DNA from: Microbulbifer harenosus
GTDB taxonomy: Bacteria > Pseudomonadota > Gammaproteobacteria > Pseudomonadales > Cellvibrionaceae
Assembly: GCF_005771435.1 (NCBI RefSeq)
Contig: NZ_VANI01000009.1
Location: 124,001 to 188,000 of the forward strand
Length of the DNA stretch: 64,000 nt
Direction of reading: 5' to 3'
Under the pieces are notes generated by a model. That model searched no databases. It was not told where the DNA came from and saw nothing but the letters and a program-made list of their open reading frames with translations. The translations under genes and the position numbers were made by a program. The stretch's first letter is position 1. The number at the start of each line of letters is the position of its first letter. Of this stretch, positions 12,478 through 64,000 are shown piece by piece.

Positions 12478-12513
12478 AAAAAAATGGCGAGCCGATTGGC
12501 TCGCCATTTTTTT
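12478..12513. terminator. Bidirectional rho-independent terminator
   Basis: AAAAAAATGGCGAGCC (12478-12493), loop GATT, GGCTCGCCATTTTTTT (12498-12513): a perfect stem with A and T tails, serving the oxidoreductase gene on the plus strand and the porin gene on the minus strand. Confidence 0.95.
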
Positions 12514-12527
12514 GTGAATCGAGCCGA

Positions 12528-13769
12528 TTACCAGCCGATCTGAGCCCGAAACCCCAACTGGTCGGTGCCATCACCGGTGAAATCATCGTCGCCGATGATG
12601 TAGTTCAGCATGAAACGCACGTTGCGATTAGCGTAGAAGTTGAGACCCACCGTGGTGCTGTTGGCTTGCAGGTGATCGAAATCCCGGTTTTCCATGGTGT
12701 CGTAGCGGAAGGTCAACTCCCAGGCGCCTCCCCACAGACCGTCACCGCTGGGCTTCGCTGAGCTGAAAGCACCGCGTTTCTGGCTGTAAGGCTTGTGCTC
12801 ACCGGTCAGCATCCAGCTGCCCTGGACATACCAGGTGTGAATGGTCTGGTCGCCGATAAAGCAGCCGAATTCGGGATCGCAGGGGAAGGGTGCCGGCGCC
12901 CCGAATTCGTCCTCGAAGTCCTCTTCCGTCAGATAGTAATTTCCCTCGAAGCCGCCGACGGTGTATTCCGCCTGCAGATACAGCGGGCCATAGCTACCGG
13001 CCAGCTCCAGCGCTGCGGTGCTGGCGTCTCCGCCAAGGTCACCCGGGGTGAGTGCCATCAGCTGAGACGGGCCGCGACGGCCTGCGTAATCTGCTTCGGC
13101 CATCAGGTCGCTGGAGTTCTGATTGGCGTTTTCATAGCTGATGGAGGTGCCCAGGTGCAGGGTTTCATGGTCGGTATTGACCGGATGCCAGGCCAGACGG
13201 CCGGCGGCTCCCAGGCCCTCGTTGCGGGGGGTGCCCGCATCGCGCAGATTGAACGCCATCATACCGAGGGTGAAGCAATCCAGGACGCCGGTCCAGCCGA
13301 TACCCTGCTGAAACTGGTTGCCATCGTAGAGGCCAGTAGCGCTGGAGAATGGCCGCTCCAGCATAGTCAGCTCGTTGGAGCTGGTCATTTCCGCCATGGA
13401 GCGAAAGGGTTTGAACTGGCCAATACGCACCTCGCCGTCGAGGAACTTGTGCGCCAGGTACACGTCGCGGAAGCCATCGAGGGTGCTGCCACCGGCAAAA
13501 TCCTGCTCTAGTATGTAGCTCCAGTCGTAGATGTCACCTTTCAGAGTAATACGTGCGCGACGGAACTCCGTGGTGCTGATAGCGTTGACCTGGTCGCTGT
13601 CGAACAGGTAGGTGTCGAAATGAATACGGCCGCCGAGAGACGCGGAAAAGTTTCCGTCATCGGAAACGATTTTCAGGTTGCCTTTGGTTTCTGCTTGATC
13701 GGCAACGGCGGTACCTGAGAGCAGGCAGGTTATGGAAAGAGCCAGCAGGCTCTGGTGGGGGCGGTCCAT
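12528..13769 (-). CDS. OprO/OprP-type phosphate-selective porin
   Basis: 413 residues with a signal peptide ending near GTAVADQ (residue ~24) and an N-terminal SLGGRIHFDTYLFDSD strand typical of the Porin_O_P family, followed by alternating amphipathic strands and a C-terminal GFRAQIGW ending in the expected aromatic residue. Family members form 16-stranded trimeric channels with a cationic selectivity filter; not all carry phosphate. The AT-rich promoter region (13770-13932) has no convincing Pho box, so phosphate regulation is not supported here. Confidence 0.82.
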   Translation of the reverse strand: MDRPHQSLLALSITCLLSGTAVADQAETKGNLKIVSDDGNFSASLGGRIHFDTYLFDSDQVNAISTTEFRRARITLKGDIYDWSYILEQDFAGGSTLDGFRDVYLAHKFLDGEVRIGQFKPFRSMAEMTSSNELTMLERPFSSATGLYDGNQFQQGIGWTGVLDCFTLGMMAFNLRDAGTPRNEGLGAAGRLAWHPVNTDHETLHLGTSISYENANQNSSDLMAEADYAGRRGPSQLMALTPGDLGGDASTAALELAGSYGPLYLQAEYTVGGFEGNYYLTEEDFEDEFGAPAPFPCDPEFGCFIGDQTIHTWYVQGSWMLTGEHKPYSQKRGAFSSAKPSGDGLWGGAWELTFRYDTMENRDFDHLQANSTTVGLNFYANRNVRFMLNYIIGDDDFTGDGTDQLGFRAQIGW

Positions 13770-13932
13770 AGTGTTGATTCCATATCATTTGGCTGTCTTA
13801 TTGGCGGCGAATACTATCAGCCCATGATTTTCGTCAGAAATTGGAAACATTTTTGAAACAATTGACATCCATAAAATTAAATGTTTCCAACTGTCACATT
13901 ATGGTAACAAAATTAATGTAATGGGCGCCGAA

Positions 13933-14862
13933 TCAGATCTGGGTAATATGGAAGCCGACACCTTTCAGCAAATCGGTGACAGACCTGTCGCCCACTAGAT
14001 GCCCGGCGCCCACGATCACGAACAGAGTTTGGTGTTGCTGGCTGAAATCCTGGATTTTTTTCGCCATCTCGCGGTTGCGCCGATAGAAGAGTAGCTCATG
14101 CAGCTGTTCAAATTCAGGGTGTTCGTCAATTCCTTCGCGAAACACCAGGTCGTAAAGTGCCTGTTGATCGCCGGCCTTCCAGGCCCCGGTCATACGCGGC
14201 ACGAACCTGTCCATTTCCGCCAGTTGATCCAGGGTTTGCTGCAAATAGAGCTCCGGCTTTTCCAGGCTGTTCAGTAGTTGCAGTTGTTGAATCACGCTTT
14301 CCAGTTCCAGTGTGGTTTTGCCCTTCTGGCGTGCCTGCAATAAAAAGTGGCGGTCAATGCCGGCTTTCGGGTCCAGCCCGCGCGCCTGCATCTCTACCAT
14401 GCTCAAGGTAATCATGGCAATGGCGGGGCGCATACGGCTGAAATGTGTCTCTGGAATCTGGCGTTTCCGCAACCAGGTCTGCAGTTCGCCATACAAGGTG
14501 GGGGGAATATGGTTTTTCAACTGATCGCCCGGTGGATAAAAGGATTCCAGCATGACTTTCTGTTGGAGTTGCGGGTCGGATTCCATGGCGACGACATCCG
14601 CTTCTACCACCAGCGCACTGCTGTTGTTGTAGGCGTTTATGATGGTGTCCCGCAATGGGTAGAAACTCTGGTCGGCGAGGTGGATCGAGCCCAGCAGGTA
14701 GACGGTATGTTCTCCCTTTGTGGCCTGCAGTAACAGACCGCGGTCATTGGCCGCCTGGACCTGAGCCGCTGCCAGCGCGGTAATTAACAGCAGCAACCAG
14801 TGAAGCAGGAGGCTTTTGTGGGTGCGATGTCTGGGTGGGCGGGCTGGATTGAAGAGTTCCAT
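13933..14862 (-). CDS. TraB/GumN family protein
   Basis: 309 residues, AAGGAG ribosome site, N-terminal hydrophobic export segment (about residues 18-38, ending AAQVQAA). The family's paired motifs are present: LLGSIHLADQSFYPL near residue 55 (GxxH) and VGAGHLVGDRS near the C-terminus (GxGH), with a conserved RMRPAIAMITLS helix between. TraB/GumN proteins belong to the Tiki/EreA-like putative metallohydrolases and are thought to act on peptides outside the cytoplasm; no substrate is known for bacterial chromosomal members. No operon partners. Confidence 0.85.
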   Translation of the reverse strand: MELFNPARPPRHRTHKSLLLHWLLLLITALAAAQVQAANDRGLLLQATKGEHTVYLLGSIHLADQSFYPLRDTIINAYNNSSALVVEADVVAMESDPQLQQKVMLESFYPPGDQLKNHIPPTLYGELQTWLRKRQIPETHFSRMRPAIAMITLSMVEMQARGLDPKAGIDRHFLLQARQKGKTTLELESVIQQLQLLNSLEKPELYLQQTLDQLAEMDRFVPRMTGAWKAGDQQALYDLVFREGIDEHPEFEQLHELLFYRRNREMAKKIQDFSQQHQTLFVIVGAGHLVGDRSVTDLLKGVGFHITQI

Positions 14863-15130
14863 ATTGTGCTCCTTATATTTTCTGTCAAAAAATTCTACCG
14901 GATTCCACCAGACTTGTGATTTATATCGCCATTACGAGAATTGTGCGCCCTGGCGCAGAAATCAGCGGTACAATTGTGAAGCCGAATTGACGGGAGATTG
15001 GTTGCGGAAGTGTTTTTCCGATATTTTCTTCCGGCCTTTTGATCGCGCATCCTGTGCAAGTATTGATCTTGTGCGGAAAGCGGCACGGGCGGCAGGTGAT
15101 CTTGAATCGTGGAATGGAGTTTGCTCGGCT

Positions 15131-16330
15131 ATGCGGATTGTGCAATTGGTACCTTCTATGGACGGTGGCGAACTGGCGCAAGAGACGCTGGAGTTCGCTC
15201 AGGAGCTCGCAAGGCAGGGGCATGAATCTGCAGTGATCTCCGCAGGGGGAACTCTGGTCTCGCGCCTGACGTTGCACAATTGCCAGCATCATCAATTACC
15301 CGTCGACCAGAAACCATTTTTTCGCGCGCGCATTCACGGCAGGCTGCGCCGGCTGCTGGAAAATCTGCGGCCGGATATCCTGCTGGCCCGTGACGCACTG
15401 TGCAGCTGGCACGCTTGGTGTGTGTGGCAATCCCTCCCCGAGGCGATGCGGCCGCGTCTGGTAACAGCACTGCATACTCTGCCGCCCAGTGGTCTATTCC
15501 GTGGACGAGTGAACGGCGCGCTGGCGCGCGGTGAGTTAGTCATGGCTTCATCCGGGTCTTTGGCCCGCGAGTTGCAACTGCGCTACGGCGCCATCCTCAA
15601 TCAGGCGACCGCGGGAGGAAATGGTGACGCGTCTTCAGGGCCTCAGGTGCGCTACCGCGGGGTAAACACCCGTGAGTTGGACCGGTGGGCGCCGGTCTCC
15701 GGACACTGGCACCAGAAGCTGTTGAACCAGTTTCCACAGTTGGAGGGGCGCAACTGGCTGCTGTTGCCGGCACCCATCGCACCGGGAAAAGGGCTGGAGT
15801 GCTTTCTTGAACTGCTGGCGGTGCTGAAACAGACGCTCCCGGATATCTTTGGCCTGATTGTCGGTGAAGTGGTGCCGGGGCAAGAAAAGTTTGCCCGGCG
15901 TCTTGAGCACCGTGCTGAAACCATGGGGCTTGCCGAGTATGTACTGTTTCTTGGGGCCCGCCGCGATATGCGTGAGCTTTACGCCAGCGCTCGGTTGACA
16001 CTGGATCTCTCGGGTGATCCGGCTGGTACCGGCCGGGTCATCACCGAGTCGCTCGCCATGGGTTGTCCCGCCGTGGCGCTGGCTGGAACTGGCACAGAAA
16101 TTTTACAGCAGTGTTTTCCGCAGGGGCTGTTGCCCGATCTTTCCAGCAGCGGCAATGCGACCCTGGCCGCGCGACTTGCCGATACCTGCGAGTCCATTCT
16201 GAACCACTCACCCAATGTGAATTTCACCGGCTTCAGTCTGGCGGAAACTACGACTCAGACGGTGGGATGGTTTCGGCAGTTATGTGAAGGGCGTGCGGCA
16301 ACCGGAAGCAGGGTTGCAGAGACTGCGTGA
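15131..16330 (+). CDS. GT4-like glycosyltransferase
   Basis: 399 residues from ATG 15131, where homology-like sequence begins (MRIVQLVPSMDGGELAQ, a GT-B acceptor-domain loop). The open frame extends back to 14816 but that stretch overlaps the divergent TraB gene and has no domain character. The C-terminal domain has LLPAPIAPGKGLECFLELL (start of the donor domain, near 215) and GTGRVITESLAMGCPAVAL near 300, a GT4 EX7E-type site in which the first position is shifted. The ribosome site is poor. It is convergent with another glycosyltransferase 15 bp away; both resemble LPS core transferases, but the linkage cannot be assigned. Confidence 0.75.
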   Translation: MRIVQLVPSMDGGELAQETLEFAQELARQGHESAVISAGGTLVSRLTLHNCQHHQLPVDQKPFFRARIHGRLRRLLENLRPDILLARDALCSWHAWCVWQSLPEAMRPRLVTALHTLPPSGLFRGRVNGALARGELVMASSGSLARELQLRYGAILNQATAGGNGDASSGPQVRYRGVNTRELDRWAPVSGHWHQKLLNQFPQLEGRNWLLLPAPIAPGKGLECFLELLAVLKQTLPDIFGLIVGEVVPGQEKFARRLEHRAETMGLAEYVLFLGARRDMRELYASARLTLDLSGDPAGTGRVITESLAMGCPAVALAGTGTEILQQCFPQGLLPDLSSSGNATLAARLADTCESILNHSPNVNFTGFSLAETTTQTVGWFRQLCEGRAATGSRVAETA

Positions 16331-16345
16331 TTTGCGCCCGCCGTC

Positions 16346-17359
16346 TCAGGCAATAAGCCCTGTGTAGACCTGCCAGGTGGCCCGGGCCATGGAATCCAGA
16401 GTGAATTCCTGCTGAGCGCGGGCAAACAGTGGCGCGAAATCCGTGTCTAATGTCGTGCTCCGCAGCGTCGCCTGAATTTTTTCTGCGATGTGTATGGGCT
16501 CGACGTCGTCGAGCAGATAGGCAGGCGGCAGCAGGTCGATGGCATTGCCGTTCGCGCTGGCAATCACCGGCGTGCGGTGCAGCAGTGCTTCCAGCAGCGT
16601 GTATGGAGTACTCTCCGCTGCTGCTGGGATGATGACCAGATCTGCGGCTTGCATGAAGTCCGCCAATGTATTGTTCCCCGCAAAAAAGGCGACACGGTTG
16701 TCCAGCTGCAGGCGGCTGACCAGCTGTTGTAGGGCTTCTTTCTCCGGCCCGTCGCCCAACACCATCAACCGCGTACCGGGTAGCAACGGCATTGCGGTAA
16801 TCAGCTGATCCACACAGCGCGCTTTGATTAAGCGACTTGCCACCAGCAGCGTCGGTCCGTCAGAGGACGGCAGCCCAGGCAGCACCGTGTTGGCCGCAGG
16901 CGCCGACAGCTCCACCCCGTTGGGAATGATGTTCCACTCCAGTTTGGAATTGGCGACGGTGGTGTGACTGATGGCAATACGCGCATCGAAGGCGCTGGCG
17001 AGTTTGTCGCGCGGATGGCGCACGTTGTGGCGAGTGATGACCTGGCGGGTTTCCGTGTAGGGCTGCACCGCGGCCATCAGTTGTGCAGATTTTGACCCGT
17101 GGCCATGTACTATCTGGTAACCGCCCTTGCGGATCAGGCTCGCCAGGCGCCAGACCAGATTGGGATGGTGGCGGCTGCGGTCAGTATTCAAAGGAATGAA
17201 TTGGATGCGTTCATCCAGAGTTTGCAGATAGCGGGGATGGGCAATGACAGCGATGTGAGCGCCGGTATTGTGCGCCTGCCAGCGCGACAGGTCGGCAACG
17301 TGTTTTTCGAGCCCGCCGTGCTCCCGGCTGGCAATAAGATGGCAGATGGTTTGAATCAT
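16346..17359 (-). CDS. GT4-family glycosyltransferase
   Basis: 337 residues from the ATG at 17359 (MIQTICHLIASREHGGLEKHV); 21 further in-frame codons upstream lack similarity. The N-terminal GGLEKHV loop and the YQIVHGHGSKSAQL segment mark the acceptor domain; the donor domain carries LLVASRLIKARCVDQLI and PAAAESTPYTLLEALLHRTPVIAS near 265, a clear EX7E motif. These are features of LPS core and capsule transferases such as WaaG/RfaG relatives. It is convergent with the glycosyltransferase at 15131-16330; a lipid A deacylase lies upstream, consistent with an LPS-modifying neighbourhood. Confidence 0.8.
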   Translation of the reverse strand: MIQTICHLIASREHGGLEKHVADLSRWQAHNTGAHIAVIAHPRYLQTLDERIQFIPLNTDRSRHHPNLVWRLASLIRKGGYQIVHGHGSKSAQLMAAVQPYTETRQVITRHNVRHPRDKLASAFDARIAISHTTVANSKLEWNIIPNGVELSAPAANTVLPGLPSSDGPTLLVASRLIKARCVDQLITAMPLLPGTRLMVLGDGPEKEALQQLVSRLQLDNRVAFFAGNNTLADFMQAADLVIIPAAAESTPYTLLEALLHRTPVIASANGNAIDLLPPAYLLDDVEPIHIAEKIQATLRSTTLDTDFAPLFARAQQEFTLDSMARATWQVYTGLIA

Positions 17360-57041: not shown

Positions 57042-57118
57042 CGGAGTGTAGCGCAGCCTGGTAGCGCACCACACTGGGGGTGTGGTGGTCGTCGGTTCAA
57101 ATCCGGCCACTCCGACCA
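57042..57118 (+). tRNA. tRNA-Pro (GGG)
   Basis: 77 nt with encoded CCA: acceptor CGGAGTG/CACTCCG, D-arm AGCGCAGCCTGGTAGCGC, anticodon stem CCACA/TGTGG with loop CTGGGGG (GGG), TPsiC GGTTCAAATCC. Conserved genes lie on the left; everything on the right to about 63.3 kb is accessory, so this tRNA marks an insertion hotspot. I found no second copy of its 3' end in the window. Confidence 0.97.
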
Positions 57119-57146: not shown

Positions 57147-57175
57147 AAAGCCCGCCCAACTATGCGGGCTTTTTT
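57147..57175 (+). terminator. Rho-independent terminator of tRNA-Pro
   Basis: AAAGCCCGC (57147-57155), loop CCAACTAT, GCGGGCTTT (57164-57172), continuing in T to 57174. Perfect 9-bp stem. Confidence 0.92.
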
Positions 57176-57320
57176 GTTTCTCGAATTCAATTGCTCGCGC
57201 AGTGTTGCATCCGTTGAGTCTCTTCGCTGTCTGCATTCGATCAGACTTTTTCTAGCCAATAAATCCTCACTCTCCAATCGCCAGCAATGATTGGCGGATG
57301 AAGGTTTAATTCAGTATCAA

Positions 57321-57391: not shown

Positions 57392-57462
57392 TGCACCATC
57401 CCTTCTGTAAATTTGCCCGCTCTTAAATCATGTGCAGGCGAATTTACAAAAGGGATGGTGCA
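57392..57462. repeat. 29-bp inverted repeat with 13-bp spacer
   Basis: Arms 57392-57420 and 57434-57462 are complementary at 26 of 29 positions; both end in TGCACCATCCCTT (outer side). The right arm is the start of the Imm11-like ORF, whose ATG (57430) lies in the spacer. There is no T-run, so it is not a simple terminator. It could be the scar of an inverted duplication or a structured leader that hides the start codon. Confidence 0.85.
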
Positions 57463-57825
57463 ACCGAGGCAGATATCGGAATACTGACATTCTGTTCACT
57501 GGTGTTAACCGAGGGGGCATGGTCGGAGCTGAAAGAGATTGCTGAACGGTACGGCCATTTATTGCCTTGGCAATATGGTGAGCGCAGGCTTTGGTTGTGG
57601 AACGTTACCAATGTGGCGAACGTGCTTGATAGGGACCGCAGCAGCTTAAATCATTTTGGTGGCGTTTCACATCCTGTATTCACCGCAGACAAGTTGACAG
57701 ATAACCCGGTGTTCAAATTGCGCGAAGATAATTACACCGCCATCTATTGCACGTACACATTCCGTCAACTGATCGAAAACCACAATTTCACAGGGCTCGA
57801 GTTCGAGGCGTTGGACGTCGCCTAA
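57430..57825 (+). CDS. Imm11/DUF1629-like immunity-type protein, probably N-terminally truncated
   Basis: 131 residues. From residue ~25 on it follows the Imm11 (DUF1629) pattern as I know it: LVLTEGAWSELKEIAERYGHLLPW, then the aromatic strand RLWLWNVTNVANVLDRDRSS (an N-V-x5-LDRxRS signature), FKLREDNYTAIYCTYTFRQLIENHNFTGLEFEAL at the end. Full members are usually about 180-200 residues, so 50-60 N-terminal residues appear lost; a stop codon precedes the ATG and no ribosome site is present. Imm11 proteins neutralise polymorphic toxins in contact-dependent competition. No toxin gene is nearby. The stop lies 20 bp before the helicase gene, so the two could share a transcript. It may be a decaying remnant. 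Confidence 0.55.
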   Translation: MCRRIYKRDGATEADIGILTFCSLVLTEGAWSELKEIAERYGHLLPWQYGERRLWLWNVTNVANVLDRDRSSLNHFGGVSHPVFTADKLTDNPVFKLREDNYTAIYCTYTFRQLIENHNFTGLEFEALDVA

Positions 57826-57845: not shown

Positions 57846-60800
57846 ATGACCGACCAACAGCCATCAACCGTCAAGATCCACGCAGTGCTTGTTGAAAAAA
57901 TTAACTTCGCCTGCCACCAGAGCGCTTTCGCGGTGCTGCGCTCGCTGAAAGTCGAGAATCTGGATGAAACACAGGATCTGTCTGATCTGGTGATAACACT
58001 GGAGGCTTCCCCGGCCTTCCTGAAGCCGAAGACCTGGACGATCGACCGGATCTCTGCCGGTGGCGAGCTGGCGGTCAAGGATCGTGATCTGCAACTCGAC
58101 GGCGGCTTTCTGTTCGGGTTGACGGAATCCATGCGGGGCACTGTGTATGTTCGCGTACAGCGCGCTGGAGCGTTGCTGGCGGAGCAAGGTATCGAGGTGC
58201 AATTGCTGGCCTGCAACGAGTGGGGTGGCACGGCTTATATGCCGGAACTGCTGGCCGCGTTCAGTACCCCGAACGACCCGGCGGTAGACCGTGTGTTGGG
58301 GCAGGCCAGCCAGATTCTGAAAAAGGCCGGCAAACCCGCCGCCATCAATGGCTACGAGGGAGGCAGTCGCGAAGCCGTGTGGCTGATGGCGTCGGCCATC
58401 TACTCCGCCGTCGTCAAACTGCAATTGGGTTACGCGCTGCCACCTTCCAGTTTTGAGCGTAATGGCCAGAAAATTCGTCTACCCGCCCAGATTGAGAGCG
58501 GCAAACTGGCCACTTGTCTGGATTCCACACTGCTATTCGCCGCGGCGTTTGAGCAGGCGGGGCTCAATCCGATGGTTGTATTGGTCGAGGGGCATGCGCT
58601 CGTCGGTCTCTGGCTACAGCCAGACAATTTCTCCAGCGTGGTGGTCACCGAGGGCGAAGTGCTGCGCCAGCGGCTGCCTCTGAAGGAGTTGATCCTGATT
58701 GAAACCACGCTCGTCACGTCTCATCCGGCAGTCCCTTTTTCCAAAGCAGTACAGCAGGGGGCTGAAGCGGTAGCGCTGGAAAAGGAGAAGGAGTTCGTTG
58801 CGGTGGTGGATATCCGCCGTGCGCGGGCGCACTGCATTCATCCGATCAGTCTGAAGGCGCCGTCTGCTTCTCCCGCAACGGACGGTATTGATTCTGAGTT
58901 TATCGAGCCCGATTTGGAAGCGGCCCCCGATTTGCCGGATTTTCCCGTATCTGAACCGGACGATCCCACCGTGAACACACCCGGTGGCCGCCTGGATCGC
59001 TGGCAGCGCAAGCTGCTGGATCTTTCCGCGCGCAATCCGCTGCTCAATCACAAGCCGGGTAAAACCAGCCTCACGTTTGTCTGTAACGATCCGGGTGCGC
59101 TGGAAGATGTGCTGGCCACCGGCGCGCGCATTTCTATTTCGCCCTTCCCGAAATTGCAGGGGCAGGATCAGGACGAGGATATCTTCCGTCAGCGCACCGG
59201 TCAGGAACTGAAGCACGAATACGCGCGGGACGCGCTGGACAAGAAACAGTTGCTGGTGGAGCTCACCGGTGAGGAGCTGGAGAAGCGCGCGGTGGAAATC
59301 TACCGCAAGGCACAGACGTCACTGAAAGAAGGCGGTTCCAACACGCTGTTTCTGGCCATCGGCTTTCTGTTGTGGAAGCCGCAGGACAAGGGCGACCGCC
59401 GCTACCGCGCGCCGCTGATCCTGTTGCCCGTCTCCCTGGAGCGCAAATCCGTGCGCAGTGGCGTGAAGATGGTTGCGAGCGAAGATGAACCCAGGTTCAA
59501 CACTACTCTGCTGGAACTACTGAAAAAGGATTTCGGCATCGAGATCGGCGGTTTACAGGGTGCCCTGCCACAGGATCACAGCGGTATCGACGTGGCGGGT
59601 ATCTGGCACCGGGTGCGCCACGCGATCAAGGATGTACCTGGGTTCGAAGTGATCGAAGATGTGGCGCTTGGCCATTTCTCCTTTGCTAAGTACCTGATGT
59701 GGAAAGACCTGGTGGATCGGGCCGATGCCCTGAAAGAAAACCCGGTGGTGAAGCATCTGCTGGATACGCCCCGCGAGCCCTACGAGAGCGATATCCGCTT
59801 TGTCGACCCCGGGGATATCGACCGCGAATACACGCCGGCGGATTTACTGACGCCGCTGCCCGCAGATTCGTCACAGATGTCGGCGATCGCCACTGCAGAC
59901 CGCGGCAAGGATTTTGTGATTATCGGCCCGCCCGGAACCGGCAAAAGCCAGACCATCAGCAATCTGATTGCGCACATGCTGGGCACCGGCAAAAAAGTGC
60001 TGTTCGTATCCGAAAAGACCGCAGCACTGGAAGTGGTGCACCGTCGCCTGAAGGACATCGGCCTTGGACAGTTCTGCCTGGAGTTGCATTCCAGTAAGGC
60101 GAAAAAGGCCGACGTGCTGGCGCAGCTGGGCAGTTCCTGGAACAGCTTTTCCCAGGCGGGCGTCAACAACTGGCTGGTGGAGGCGGATCGCCTCAAGGCA
60201 TTGCGCGATCGCCTGAACCGGGTCGTCAACGCCCTGCATACACCTCGACGTAATGGATTGACCGCGCACTACGCCATCGGCGTTAAGGTGCGCGATGAAG
60301 CGTTGGCGGCGAAGGTGAAACTCAGCTGGCCCTGTGCAGACCATCACGATCAGGCGCAATTGCAGAAACTGCGGGAAATGGCCGGGCTGCTGAGTGTACA
60401 GGCCAGGGCAGTGGGCAACCTCGCCGACCATCCACTCAAACTGATAGCCAATCACGACTGGCGCCCACAGTGGCAGGAATCTGTAGTAAAGGCCACAGGA
60501 CTGCTGAAGGCCAGTGCTCAGCAGGTAGCTGGCAGCCTGGCGGCGTTGCAGAAGGCTGCAGGACTCGCCTTTGGAGAGGTGGATCTATCAAGGCTCGCGG
60601 CGGTGGCGGAACTCGGGCAGGTATTGCTGGATGCCTATCGCAAGCAGGCGGCATTTGCGCTGGAGCCGGATGCAGCCGATCGCCTGGATGCGCTGGAGGA
60701 GGCGGTTACCCAGCTCAAAGCCTATATCACCCAGCAGTCGCAATTGAGTTGCCGCTATGAAGATCTCGCCTGGAAAAAGCTCGATGCCGATGCGCTGGAG

Positions 60801-63119
60801 CAGGCGTTGCGTGACGCCAACGAGACCTGGTGGCCAAAAAGCTTCTTTGCCAAACGCAAGGTTATTAAAAATATCTGCAGCAATGGCGCCCTAGGTGAGC
60901 CGGACCCGGAGAACGATATCCCGGTGTTGAAACAATTGCGGGAAACCGGCAACCGGATCGACAAACTCGACAGCACACTGACGGGGCTGCGTGCATGGAA
61001 TTCCTATAACTCCAATCCGGACGATATCGCATCGCTCCAGCAACTCGGCGCCCGCGCTCGCACGGCCGTTGGTAAACTCGCTGACGATGCCGAATCCCTG
61101 GGAACACTTCGCGCGGCTGTGCGCAGGTTGTTGTTCGATGCCAATGATCTGCTTGCGCCGGAGGCGTCTGTCGGTCGCGCTGTAGTGCAATTCCTGGAAA
61201 CATTGAAGCGCTTCAATGCCGTCAGAGAAAAATTCGAAGCGCTGATCGGAAGCGGGCTGGAGGACGATTGGGAGGGGAATTCTCGGACGCTCCCGGCAGT
61301 CGGCGCGCTTTGCCAGCAGATTATTGACCACCATATCTCCCTGAAAGACTGGTGTGCCTGGGTGCGCAGGCGCGCCGAGGCGCTGGATTACCAGATGGGT
61401 CCTCTGGTTGCGGCTATCGAAAGTGGCGGTGTAGAACCGGGAGAAGTGGTCGAAGTGTTCGAGGCGGCCTACTGCGCCTGGTGGTCGTCGGCAGTCATCG
61501 GTGAAGATGACGTGTTGAGGACATTCTCGACTCCAGAACATGAATCCGCGATTCAAAACTTCCGTGTGCTGGATACCCAGTTCAGCAAACTGACCGCTCA
61601 GTACATTGCCGCGAAGTTGGGCGGACAGGTCCCGAATCCGGACGATGTCAAACGCAGTTCCTCCTGGGGCGTGCTGCGTCACGAGCTGCAGAAAAAGACC
61701 CGGCATAAGCCGGTGCGGCAGATGATGGAAGAAATTCCGGATGTGGTTACCTCTCTCGCACCCTGCCTGATGATGTCGCCGCTGTCCATTGCCCAGTACC
61801 TGTCGGCCGGGCAGGCGATGTTTGATGTTGTGATTTTCGACGAGGCCTCCCAGATCACCGTTTGGGATGCCGTGGGCTCACTGGCGCGGGGCAAGCAGGT
61901 GATCATCGCCGGCGACCCGAAACAGATGCCGCCCACCAATTTCTTTGCCCGCGCCGATGATGACCCGGATGATGAACAGGAAACCGAAGGCGATCTGGAA
62001 AGTATTCTGGATGAGCTGATCGGGGCGAGCATTCCACAGCGCGTACTCAATCTTCACTACCGCTCACGGCGCGAGAGCCTGATTGCATTCTCCAACAGCC
62101 GCTACTACGACAGCTCGCTGATTACCTTCCCGGCCCCGGTGCATCCCGATAAAGGTGTATCGCTGGTGCGCCCCGAAGGTTTCTACGCGCGCGGTAAGGC
62201 GCGGCACAATCAGGGTGAGGCCAAGGCCATCGCCGCCGAAATCGTGCGGCGCCTCACCTCGCCGGATGTGGCGGTGCGCAGCCAGTCCATTGGTGTGGTG
62301 ACATTCAATACCGAACAGCAGACACTGATCGAAGACCTGCTGGACAAGGCCCGCGCCGAAGACCCATCCATCGAGTGGGCCTTCTCCGATGAGACAATCC
62401 TGGAGCCGGTATTCGTTAAGAATCTGGAAACCGTGCAGGGGGATGAGCGGGATGTAATCCTGTTCAGTATCACCTTCGGCCCGGATGAAACGGGCCATAT
62501 GACCATGAACTTCGGCCCCCTCAACCGCACCGGCGGTGAGCGGCGCCTGAACGTCGCCATGACCCGCGCGCGCTCAGAGATGGTCGTGTTCGCCACCATA
62601 TCACCGGAACGCATAGACCTTTCGCGCACCAAGGCCCGCGCCGTCGCCGATCTCAAACACTTCCTGGAATACGCGGAGCGTGGCCCTGTTGCCCTGGCTG
62701 CAGCGGTACGGGGATCTGTTGGGGATTTTGAATCGCCATTCGAAGTGGCGGTTGCTCGAGGACTCCAGGACAAAGGCTGGACGGTACATCCCCAGATCGG
62801 AGTATCTGCCTACCGCATCGATCTCGGCATTGTTCACCCAGACGAGCCCGGTATTTATCTGGCCGGCGTCGAGTGCGATGGTGCGATGTACCACAGCTCA
62901 GCCTACGCAAGAGAGCGGGACAAAATCCGCCAGGGGATGCTTGAAGGGTTAGGCTGGACCCTGTTCCGTGTCTGGTCCACGGACTGGTGGACCAATCGTG
63001 CAAAAGCTCTTGAGGAACTCCACCTCGCACTCGAGCAGCACTTGGAAAAGACTCGAAAATTAAAGGTGCAAAGAGAAATTCTGTTGGAAAGCAACTCAGC
63101 TGAAGCCGTCTCCGATTAG
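57846..63119 (+). CDS. DUF4011/superfamily-1 helicase/PD-(D/E)xK nuclease fusion, Hhe-type anti-phage protein
   Basis: 1757 residues from ATG 57846; 33 upstream in-frame codons overlap the previous ORF in another frame. Regions: 1-370, variable, with a transglutaminase-like pattern around Cys224, His250 and Asp260; DUF4011 from about 380 (LDRWQRKLLDLSARNPLLN); SF1 helicase with Walker A GPPGTGKSQT at 694-703, Walker B VIFDEASQ at ~1330, GDPKQMPPT, LNLHYRSRRES, VQGDERDVILFS and the motif VI region LNVAMTRARSEMVVF; C-terminal MTES_1575/Vsr-like nuclease with Glu1633, Asp1659 and Glu1676-x-Asp1678 (VECDG). DUF4011-helicase-Vsr is the layout of the Hhe system reported by Gao and colleagues in 2020 as a single-gene phage defence. 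All catalytic motifs are intact. Confidence 0.88.
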   Translation: MTDQQPSTVKIHAVLVEKINFACHQSAFAVLRSLKVENLDETQDLSDLVITLEASPAFLKPKTWTIDRISAGGELAVKDRDLQLDGGFLFGLTESMRGTVYVRVQRAGALLAEQGIEVQLLACNEWGGTAYMPELLAAFSTPNDPAVDRVLGQASQILKKAGKPAAINGYEGGSREAVWLMASAIYSAVVKLQLGYALPPSSFERNGQKIRLPAQIESGKLATCLDSTLLFAAAFEQAGLNPMVVLVEGHALVGLWLQPDNFSSVVVTEGEVLRQRLPLKELILIETTLVTSHPAVPFSKAVQQGAEAVALEKEKEFVAVVDIRRARAHCIHPISLKAPSASPATDGIDSEFIEPDLEAAPDLPDFPVSEPDDPTVNTPGGRLDRWQRKLLDLSARNPLLNHKPGKTSLTFVCNDPGALEDVLATGARISISPFPKLQGQDQDEDIFRQRTGQELKHEYARDALDKKQLLVELTGEELEKRAVEIYRKAQTSLKEGGSNTLFLAIGFLLWKPQDKGDRRYRAPLILLPVSLERKSVRSGVKMVASEDEPRFNTTLLELLKKDFGIEIGGLQGALPQDHSGIDVAGIWHRVRHAIKDVPGFEVIEDVALGHFSFAKYLMWKDLVDRADALKENPVVKHLLDTPREPYESDIRFVDPGDIDREYTPADLLTPLPADSSQMSAIATADRGKDFVIIGPPGTGKSQTISNLIAHMLGTGKKVLFVSEKTAALEVVHRRLKDIGLGQFCLELHSSKAKKADVLAQLGSSWNSFSQAGVNNWLVEADRLKALRDRLNRVVNALHTPRRNGLTAHYAIGVKVRDEALAAKVKLSWPCADHHDQAQLQKLREMAGLLSVQARAVGNLADHPLKLIANHDWRPQWQESVVKATGLLKASAQQVAGSLAALQKAAGLAFGEVDLSRLAAVAELGQVLLDAYRKQAAFALEPDAADRLDALEEAVTQLKAYITQQSQLSCRYEDLAWKKLDADALEQALRDANETWWPKSFFAKRKVIKNICSNGALGEPDPENDIPVLKQLRETGNRIDKLDSTLTGLRAWNSYNSNPDDIASLQQLGARARTAVGKLADDAESLGTLRAAVRRLLFDANDLLAPEASVGRAVVQFLETLKRFNAVREKFEALIGSGLEDDWEGNSRTLPAVGALCQQIIDHHISLKDWCAWVRRRAEALDYQMGPLVAAIESGGVEPGEVVEVFEAAYCAWWSSAVIGEDDVLRTFSTPEHESAIQNFRVLDTQFSKLTAQYIAAKLGGQVPNPDDVKRSSSWGVLRHELQKKTRHKPVRQMMEEIPDVVTSLAPCLMMSPLSIAQYLSAGQAMFDVVIFDEASQITVWDAVGSLARGKQVIIAGDPKQMPPTNFFARADDDPDDEQETEGDLESILDELIGASIPQRVLNLHYRSRRESLIAFSNSRYYDSSLITFPAPVHPDKGVSLVRPEGFYARGKARHNQGEAKAIAAEIVRRLTSPDVAVRSQSIGVVTFNTEQQTLIEDLLDKARAEDPSIEWAFSDETILEPVFVKNLETVQGDERDVILFSITFGPDETGHMTMNFGPLNRTGGERRLNVAMTRARSEMVVFATISPERIDLSRTKARAVADLKHFLEYAERGPVALAAAVRGSVGDFESPFEVAVARGLQDKGWTVHPQIGVSAYRIDLGIVHPDEPGIYLAGVECDGAMYHSSAYARERDKIRQGMLEGLGWTLFRVWSTDWWTNRAKALEELHLALEQHLEKTRKLKVQREILLESNSAEAVSD

Positions 63120-63147: not shown

Positions 63148-63312
63148 ATGAATTCTGGCGTTCTAAAAATACAAGCTTCATATGACTGCGCACGCCAATT
63201 TTTCGGAGAATTTCCAGCTAATGGTTCTGATCTGGGTACTGTCGAGTACACAGATATGATTCGCTCACTGTTGGAGGAAATCCCGCAGAATTGCGTGCAT
63301 CTCTACGACTAA
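63148..63312 (+). CDS. Small ORF following the helicase gene, unknown
   Basis: 54 residues (MNSGVLKIQASYDCARQFF...IPQNCVHLYD), ATG 63148, 28 bp after the helicase stop, with TTAGGTAG upstream as a modest ribosome site. Composition is protein-like: amphipathic, two cysteines, no low-complexity. It has no recognised family. It could be an accessory peptide of the defence gene or the start of a gene cut by rearrangement. A GGGGGA/TCCCCC hairpin (63313-63333) directly follows the stop. Confidence 0.4.
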   Translation: MNSGVLKIQASYDCARQFFGEFPANGSDLGTVEYTDMIRSLLEEIPQNCVHLYD

Positions 63313-63379: not shown

Positions 63380-64000
63380 TTAAAACCGAAAGGTATAGGA
63401 CCCAGTTAGCAAAGCAGGTCGGTCACCATCTACCGCGAACTGGGTGTATTCCAGCCCCAGTTCCCCGATTGGGGCGTTCCATACGGCAAATACACCGTAG
63501 AAGGGATCCTGGCCGTTTTCGCTTCTCGTGCCTTCATACCTATAGATTCCGGATACCGGAGGTTCTTCCGAGTCTTCTTCATAAAAAAAGCCGGGGTCGT
63601 ATGTGTATTCCTGTATCAAGTTGGAATATGTAGCGATTCTCCAATATTGATATCCGGCCGAGAATCCGACATAGAAGGGTTGTTGCATGTCGGTGTGCAC
63701 CCGGACGGATGCTCCGAGTGCGCGCCCGGCGAACGACATGGTTCCCTGAACTCTGCCTTCCTGGCCAATGAGCTCGAGGTCGCCATACTCGTAATCTACG
63801 CGAGTGTCGCTTTCGCCGATATCGTACAGGCCGAGTTCGAAGGCGATGTAGCGGTTGTATTGATAGCCGCCTACCACGGAGAAGCCGAAACTGCGGTCCT
63901 TAGTAAAGTCTTCGGCCTTTTCGTCGAGCTCCAGGCTCGCTACCCCGATGCTGCTGCGGAGGTAGGTTTTGTCCAGGAAGCCCGGGCTCTGGTCGCTGAC
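63380..64000 (-). CDS. Outer membrane beta-barrel protein, 5' end beyond the window
   Basis: 206 C-terminal residues are visible; the frame is open through the right edge with no stop, so a GTG at 63877 is internal. Alternating strands such as FGFSVVGGYQYNRYIAFELGLYDIG, GASVRVHTDMQQPFYVGFSAGYQYWR and a C-terminal LTGSYTFRF (terminal Phe) mark a small 8-stranded barrel of the OmpA-like/OMP_b-brl type. It opens ...FLDKTYLRSSIGVASLELDEKAED, an expected first strand, so little beyond the signal peptide is missing. Function unknown. It probably marks the return to core chromosome after the insert. Confidence 0.75.
   Translation of the reverse strand, partial: VSDQSPGFLDKTYLRSSIGVASLELDEKAEDFTKDRSFGFSVVGGYQYNRYIAFELGLYDIGESDTRVDYEYGDLELIGQEGRVQGTMSFAGRALGASVRVHTDMQQPFYVGFSAGYQYWRIATYSNLIQEYTYDPGFFYEEDSEEPPVSGIYRYEGTRSENGQDPFYGVFAVWNAPIGELGLEYTQFAVDGDRPALLTGSYTFRF

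Follow-up and report, generated by a model that had tools for sequence, protein, structure and literature searches.

A predicted single-gene anti-phage protein of the ProA family at a tRNA-Pro defence hotspot in Microbulbifer

Several systems already described resemble parts of the locus reported here. cDHS1 is a core defence hotspot of Pseudomonas aeruginosa (PMC10250203); the passages of that paper on the site leave open its presence in other clades, and a literature search gave no answer to that question among the matches listed. Hhe appears as a DefenseFinder system name in a passage of PMC12278908, and passages of PMC4012209 and PMC11090510 show that restriction clusters headed by a regulatory activator have already been published. 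We analysed a 64,000-nucleotide stretch of the Microbulbifer harenosus contig NZ_VANI01000009.1 (hereafter the window), in which an open reading frame (ORF) for 1,757 residues at 57846..63119 on the forward strand lies downstream of a proline tRNA gene (tRNA-Pro). A first-pass annotation had called it a Hhe-type helicase-nuclease in a tRNA-Pro defence island; the hotspot inference stands, and the Hhe name does not. The reading we favour, to which we assign a probability of roughly 65%, is that the gene encodes a horizontally moving, single-gene anti-phage member of the ProA family (PADLOC candidate PDC-S37) in a tRNA-Pro defence hotspot, and that the protein would act by motor-driven DNA destruction under the control of an N-terminal gate.

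Judged by profile scores, the protein is a further member of a known and catalogued family, ProA, and not Hhe. The NCBIfam model "anti-phage protein ProA" (NF058533) scores 2074.9 bits, past its curated whole-protein cut-off of 1500, and the match is nearly full length, aligning residues 20–1743 to model positions 1–1717; the window protein differs in lacking the C-terminal DUF3320-bearing tail (model positions 1718–1903). The NCBIfam Hhe model (NF042953) scores 824.9 bits, less than half of its curated cut-off of 2000, with a best stretch limited to residues 1113–1744, and PADLOC, run on the protein as the first-pass annotation had proposed, places PDC-S37 first at 1180 bits, with Hhe next at 565 bits. 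An identity with Hhe could draw on DUF4011, common to both by model name, on the match of the Hhe models to the C-terminal half, and on the helicase and nuclease that we assume both to possess; set against the shortfall in score and the restricted stretch, it is hardly credible, and the name of the gene is corrected to ProA. Prometheus, considered as the source of the name ProA, found no support among the literature matches listed.

The architecture proposed at the outset, DUF4011 followed by an SF1 (superfamily 1) helicase and a C-terminal MTES_1575 nuclease in 1,757 residues, is borne out by Pfam, which finds both DUF4011 and the nuclease, and the domains occur in the order of the ProA model with intact motifs. 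All lie on the forward strand: DUF4011 at residues 389–559 (59010..59522; 163.7 bits), the split helicase at residues 677–1583 (59874..62594), and MTES_1575 at residues 1632–1728 (62739..63029; 116.4 bits). Pfam recovers the helicase in pieces (AAA_19 at 677–729, AAA_11 with its best stretch at 1314–1364, AAA_12 at 1386–1583), and a long stretch separates Walker A (694) from DEASQ (1332). A conservation alignment of 85 rows over 1,600 residues was made from 89 sequences with the window included; three duplicates are among its rows, as is the frameshifted L054. It shows 268 positions with conservation of at least 97%, which take in Walker A (694–701), DEASQ (1332–1336), the larger part of GDPKQMPP from 1356, the QGDxRD motif and, in the nuclease, D1659, E1676 and D1678. 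The window is identical at these helicase and nuclease positions, as the first-pass annotation had it, and deviates at a single position of the 268 (A1463, where V is usual). The ORF is intact, starts with ATG and is present as a single copy (one match in the 4.67-Mb genome). A longer frame of 1,790 residues would start with TTG at 57747; the alignments of most of the closest relatives start at the ATG instead.

Two features had gone unmentioned in the earlier description, namely the N-terminal two-domain region and the missing DUF3320. Residues 1–330 have a confident structure model comprising a beta-sandwich (residues 9–121; 57870..58208, forward strand) and a second domain, a putative transglutaminase/papain-like core with C224, H250 and E286 (residues 124–338; 58215..58859, forward strand). 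These three residues are invariant in all 83 rows that have letters there, and in the model C224 opens a helix, H250 opens a strand and E286 follows a strand. Transglutaminase- and papain-like enzymes carry a Cys at a helix start, a His on the next strand and an acidic residue after the following strand, and residues 124–338 present this pattern throughout with invariant residues. We read the domain as possibly transglutaminase- or protease-like, a reading of the model that is unproven. The alignments of the 50 fold-match rows reach residues 1–131 at most. A search for standalone N-terminal domains, with 8,000 candidates scored, gave examined matches that look like ProA fragments (120 of 165 matches listed).

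About 200 additional C-terminal residues are found in 56 of 80 tree rows, and the short form in 24, including the window and the related genome G021 (counts that leave out L054, which is a broken long form, three duplicates and L073); thus 23 of the 79 other rows likewise lack the tail. DUF3320 is present in both long-form tails tested. On a quick tree the tail changes a minimum of 12 times, at least seven of these being forced by well-supported branches, and the tail is therefore, as far as this tree indicates, dispensable or exchangeable. The window protein has neither a C-terminal extension nor a separate downstream ORF with DUF3320. That short forms might carry DUF3320 as a separate gene was rejected, the sole match among rows called short being L054.

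Presence of ProA in the genus is patchy. Matches at E ≤ 0.001 occur in 22 of 48 genomes and full-length copies in six: the window, G021 (86%), G041 (81%), G017 (80%), G020 (76%) and G023 (41%). The gene is thus not core to the genus. In three of the six it is contiguous with tRNA-Pro (the window; G021, 17.3 kb away; G041, 15.2 kb), and colinearity places a fourth copy at the site, since G017 follows G041 from 242 bp into the flank across a contig break. The contigs of G020 end short of a placement, and G023 has no ProA within 16.3 kb of tRNA-Pro. G022, the nearest relative of the window at this site (93% DNA identity), has no ProA match; over the first 12 kb of flank it has sequence in common with the window only near the tRNA and from about 8.75 kb on. 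Given full copies in six of 48 genus genomes versus relatives at 75%–78% identity in Alcanivorax, Vreelandella, Hahella and Halopseudomonas, ProA appears to spread horizontally. Matches were also found in 464 plasmid records, 69 of them at 80% protein coverage or more, and in two phage records, one at that coverage.

We rejected the idea that ProA is tied to tRNA-Pro everywhere: neither tRNA-Pro nor merR occurs in the fetched flanks (10 kb or less, often less) of any of 80 ProA loci from other records (0/80); L032 and L033 among them correspond to G041 and G017, with the tRNA at a greater distance. Of 12 genomes of the order checked for DUF4011 beside merR, three have DUF4011 and none has it adjacent, the two being on different contigs in G276 and G176 and 0.79 Mb apart in G318. 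From these comparisons, it is the ProA gene that roams and the tRNA-Pro site that collects. Elsewhere, at locus L081 (Saccharophagus sp. K07), the ProA match is split into two parts separated by about 1.16 kb, and two stops interrupt the second.

The site itself was followed through the genus. DNA of the ihfA-merR-tRNA-Pro segment is found in all 48 genomes (in G033 on two contigs, the tRNA part being separate). Right flanks of up to 40 kb were read in 45 of the 48, five of them shorter than 9 kb and with G018 and G017 (contigs ending at the tRNA) and the fragmentary G033 left out; with three ProA contigs these make 48 stretches. Flank content changes from genome to genome in most cases, and even the commonest gene cluster is confined to eight of the 48 stretches, which agrees with the variable cargo expected by the first-pass annotation. 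An integrase-like gene adjoins the tRNA in six of 45 flanks (the tested copy being just above the Pfam cut-off), a second integrase is found in two (G011, G021), and the 3' end of the tRNA recurs downstream in four (G007, G008, G031, G043). Pfam identified type I restriction genes, a sigma-54 activator and integrases among ten flank proteins. As a separate observation, two right flanks carry dense tRNA arrays, of 13 genes in L136 (G016; 14645–16978) and 19 genes in L153 (G013; 12485–15674), in coordinates oriented from tRNA-Pro.

At E ≤ 1e-20, 115 PADLOC families were matched by 117 island proteins compared to 37 by 115 control proteins, a rough contrast because families rather than proteins are counted and many models are redundant. 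The island proteins, of at least 200 residues and starting within 9 kb, came from 159 clusters, mostly from the first genomes, in a list that was filled to a length limit and excludes proteins above 1,320 residues and hence ProA; the control proteins came from 221 clusters in 20 stretches belonging to 16 of the same genomes. Among the 25 matches listed for the island are type I restriction (all three subunits), a type III methylase, DRT4, DRT6, an RmuC-type gene, Ppl, RtcR-type regulators and PDC candidates. Those listed for the control, also 25, are mad3, type II-like methylases (also DrmMII and DruM), AriA, WYL, Old and GajA, and defence-like models also occur in control stretches. With a left flank conserved in 48 of 48 genomes and variable right cargo that includes defence-system matches, the tRNA-Pro site is, by these sequence comparisons, a real defence hotspot, as the first-pass annotation had supposed.

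Genes near ProA were surveyed at 81 loci (79 of the 80 plus G000 and G021). No neighbour is constant among them, and a fixed partner gene was rejected. Type I restriction neighbours are HsdM-like at nine loci, HsdS-like at nine and HsdR-like at six, the subunit names being taken from Pfam on related copies. RtcR-like activator, HsdR, HsdM and HsdS follow one another in this order on a single strand, which also carries ProA further downstream, in G021, G041 (where other genes lie between the restriction cluster and ProA), G017, Thalassolituus (L041), Halopseudomonas (L067) and Nitrincola (L059); at L034 and L037 the fetched flank begins at HsdR. G019 and G047 lack a ProA match but carry the restriction cluster at tRNA-Pro. 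Five of six stretches scanned (G041, G021, G019, G047, L041) have, between activator and HsdR, a -24/-12 site of sigma-54 type with a single mismatch, and L067 has one with two mismatches; such sites with one or two mismatches also occur elsewhere in the stretches (for example a one-mismatch site at 11.4 kb in G041), and the counts are given without a chance expectation. Two further observations concern these clusters. A -24/-12-like site and HsdR come within tens of bases after the activator in the flanks of G021 (L123), G041 (L125), G019 (L143) and G047 (L146) and in L041 and L067. Four genomes of the genus have this arrangement downstream of tRNA-Pro, and a fifth, G017, has the genes.

How such a protein might act can be outlined from its domains. 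ProA would load on invading DNA at an end, a gap or a replication intermediate; its SF1 motor would translocate and its C-terminal Vsr-like nuclease would cut, so that infection would be restricted by destruction of the DNA and no partner gene would be needed. The gate would consist of the N-terminal beta-sandwich together with the Cys-His-Glu domain and would work either as a protease-like switch or as a sensor that detects a phage protein by peptide binding. The DUF3320 tail, missing in the window ProA, would serve as an optional module for binding DNA or a partner. Family membership, intact motifs, patchy presence and a variable site are read from sequence; the motor-driven destruction and its gate are predicted from it. 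Several results weigh against the reading of ProA as a gated anti-phage nuclease. The literature search turned up, among the matches listed, no paper on this ProA or PDC-S37, for which reason the anti-phage role rests on the NCBIfam family name, and among the matches listed in searches on DUF3320, and on transglutaminase with DUF4011, none was recognised for the ProA family. The commonest neighbour cluster (11 of 81 loci), presumably a LysR-type regulator, is not defence-like. As for the gate, residues 124–338 have no transglutaminase match in Pfam and no transglutaminase sequence match in PDB, in both cases at E ≤ 10, and hhalign gives a probability of 0.1 against one class of transglutaminase proteins from the genus.

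A cell-suicide reading would make different use of the same gate. In abortive infection, the Cys-His-Glu domain would sense or cleave a phage product and unleash the helicase-nuclease on the cell's own DNA, the cell dying before phage release. A single-gene system with an additional invariant enzyme-like domain is consistent with this, as is the otherwise unexplained self/non-self discrimination of a large helicase-nuclease. Type I restriction distinguishes self from foreign DNA, and ProA accompanies type I restriction in some sister islands, which argues against abortive infection; we consider it rather unlikely. The gene might instead encode a host helicase-nuclease for DNA repair or recombination with no defence role, since the solved structures that match in sequence are SMUBP-2, Sen1, Upf1/Nam7 and Dna2, all at work in the metabolism of RNA and DNA. 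Against this, 42 of 48 genus genomes have no full copy, and ProA occurs on plasmids, at an island site and above the anti-phage cut-off of its family, making a repair function quite improbable. More speculative than the favoured reading, and held only tentatively, is a broader proposal: a three-enzyme ProA, with a cysteine-protease-like gate of transglutaminase fold, an SF1 motor and a Vsr-like nuclease, at an ancient merR/tRNA-Pro landing site common to Microbulbifer and Pseudomonas, would join type I restriction cassettes inducible through sigma-54 and RtcR. If so, ProA and these cassettes would form an alarm-induced second nuclease layer. Returning to the favoured gated single-gene nuclease, the invariant and as yet unassigned Cys-His-Glu domain should allow point mutants to test directly how a large defence family works.

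The window also preserves traces of local history. ORFs resembling pheS, pheT, ihfA and merR precede tRNA-Pro as previously described (MerR identified by Pfam, the others from ORF translations). The tRNA-Pro(ggg) gene (57042..57118, forward strand; ARAGORN) forms the left hotspot edge and is followed by a terminator-like hairpin (57147..57176, forward strand). Inserts displace this hairpin by 36–37 kb in G021, G031 and G007, and the displacement therefore marks insertion at the tRNA 3' end; in the window it adjoins the tRNA, so ProA does not lie within such an intact tRNA-bounded insert. ProA is downstream of the tRNA as claimed, though not directly: 727 bp separate them, holding the hairpin, a pair of insertion-sequence ends and an Imm11-like fragment. 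The insertion-sequence ends are two facing terminal inverted repeats (57392..57462, unstranded; 71 bp, with 29-nt arms 90% complementary, 13 nt between them and a DNA fold z of -7.1). The other genomic copy of the repeat is a single end before a transposase-like ORF, and these may be IS256-like. The Imm11-like ORF (57430..57825, forward strand; Pfam Imm11 25.5 bits, cut-off 22.1) is a 5'-truncated fragment, because it starts within the insertion-sequence remnant and is homologous to the G017 and G041 sequences only from residue 10 onward. In G017, and with a broken frame in G041, an Imm11-like homologue stands ahead of ProA. It is plausible but unproven that the window descends from a G041/G017-like island whose left part was lost via the insertion sequence. 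Imm11 as a fixed ProA partner was rejected, with close homologues only at the G041 and G017 loci and a truncated one here. Beyond ProA lie a 54-residue ORF (63148–63312; no Pfam match at E ≤ 10) and an outer-membrane beta-barrel-like gene (63380–64000, reverse strand, open at the window end; OmpA_membrane 22.6 bits, cut-off 21). Just past the right end is an RtcB RNA ligase gene (L121:7484–8689; Pfam 451.6 bits), whose cluster is also found in the flanks of five other genomes.

Compared to the RtcR-headed superoperons described in passages of PMC11090510 and PMC4012209, some sister islands have the same CARF-sigma54-type activator, HsdR, HsdM and HsdS, and some also an RmuC-like gene between HsdR and HsdM. 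The published arrangement has CoCoNuT in the downstream position, whereas the sister islands have ProA, and the window ProA has no such head. ProA is not mentioned in the passages of either paper on activator-restriction clusters, and DUF4011 and Hhe have no occurrences in PMC11090510.

The comparison with cDHS1, as far as the relevant passages of PMC10250203 describe it, concerns the site rather than the gene. Both have a left flank of pheS-pheT, ihfA, merR and a proline tRNA, variable defence cargo, and a tRNA that serves as a landing site for mobile elements. They differ on the right: cDHS1 is bounded there by a core DUF4011 gene, whereas here DUF4011, as part of ProA, is cargo in a minority of genomes (full copies in 6/48), and no gene cluster exceeds eight of the 48 stretches within 40 kb, though a core gene may lie further out. 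The window's genome instead continues with rtcB (7.5 kb) and tRNA-Arg (18.8 kb). With the genomes of one genus, the merR/tRNA-Pro site thus emerges from sequence comparison as a defence hotspot outside Pseudomonas.
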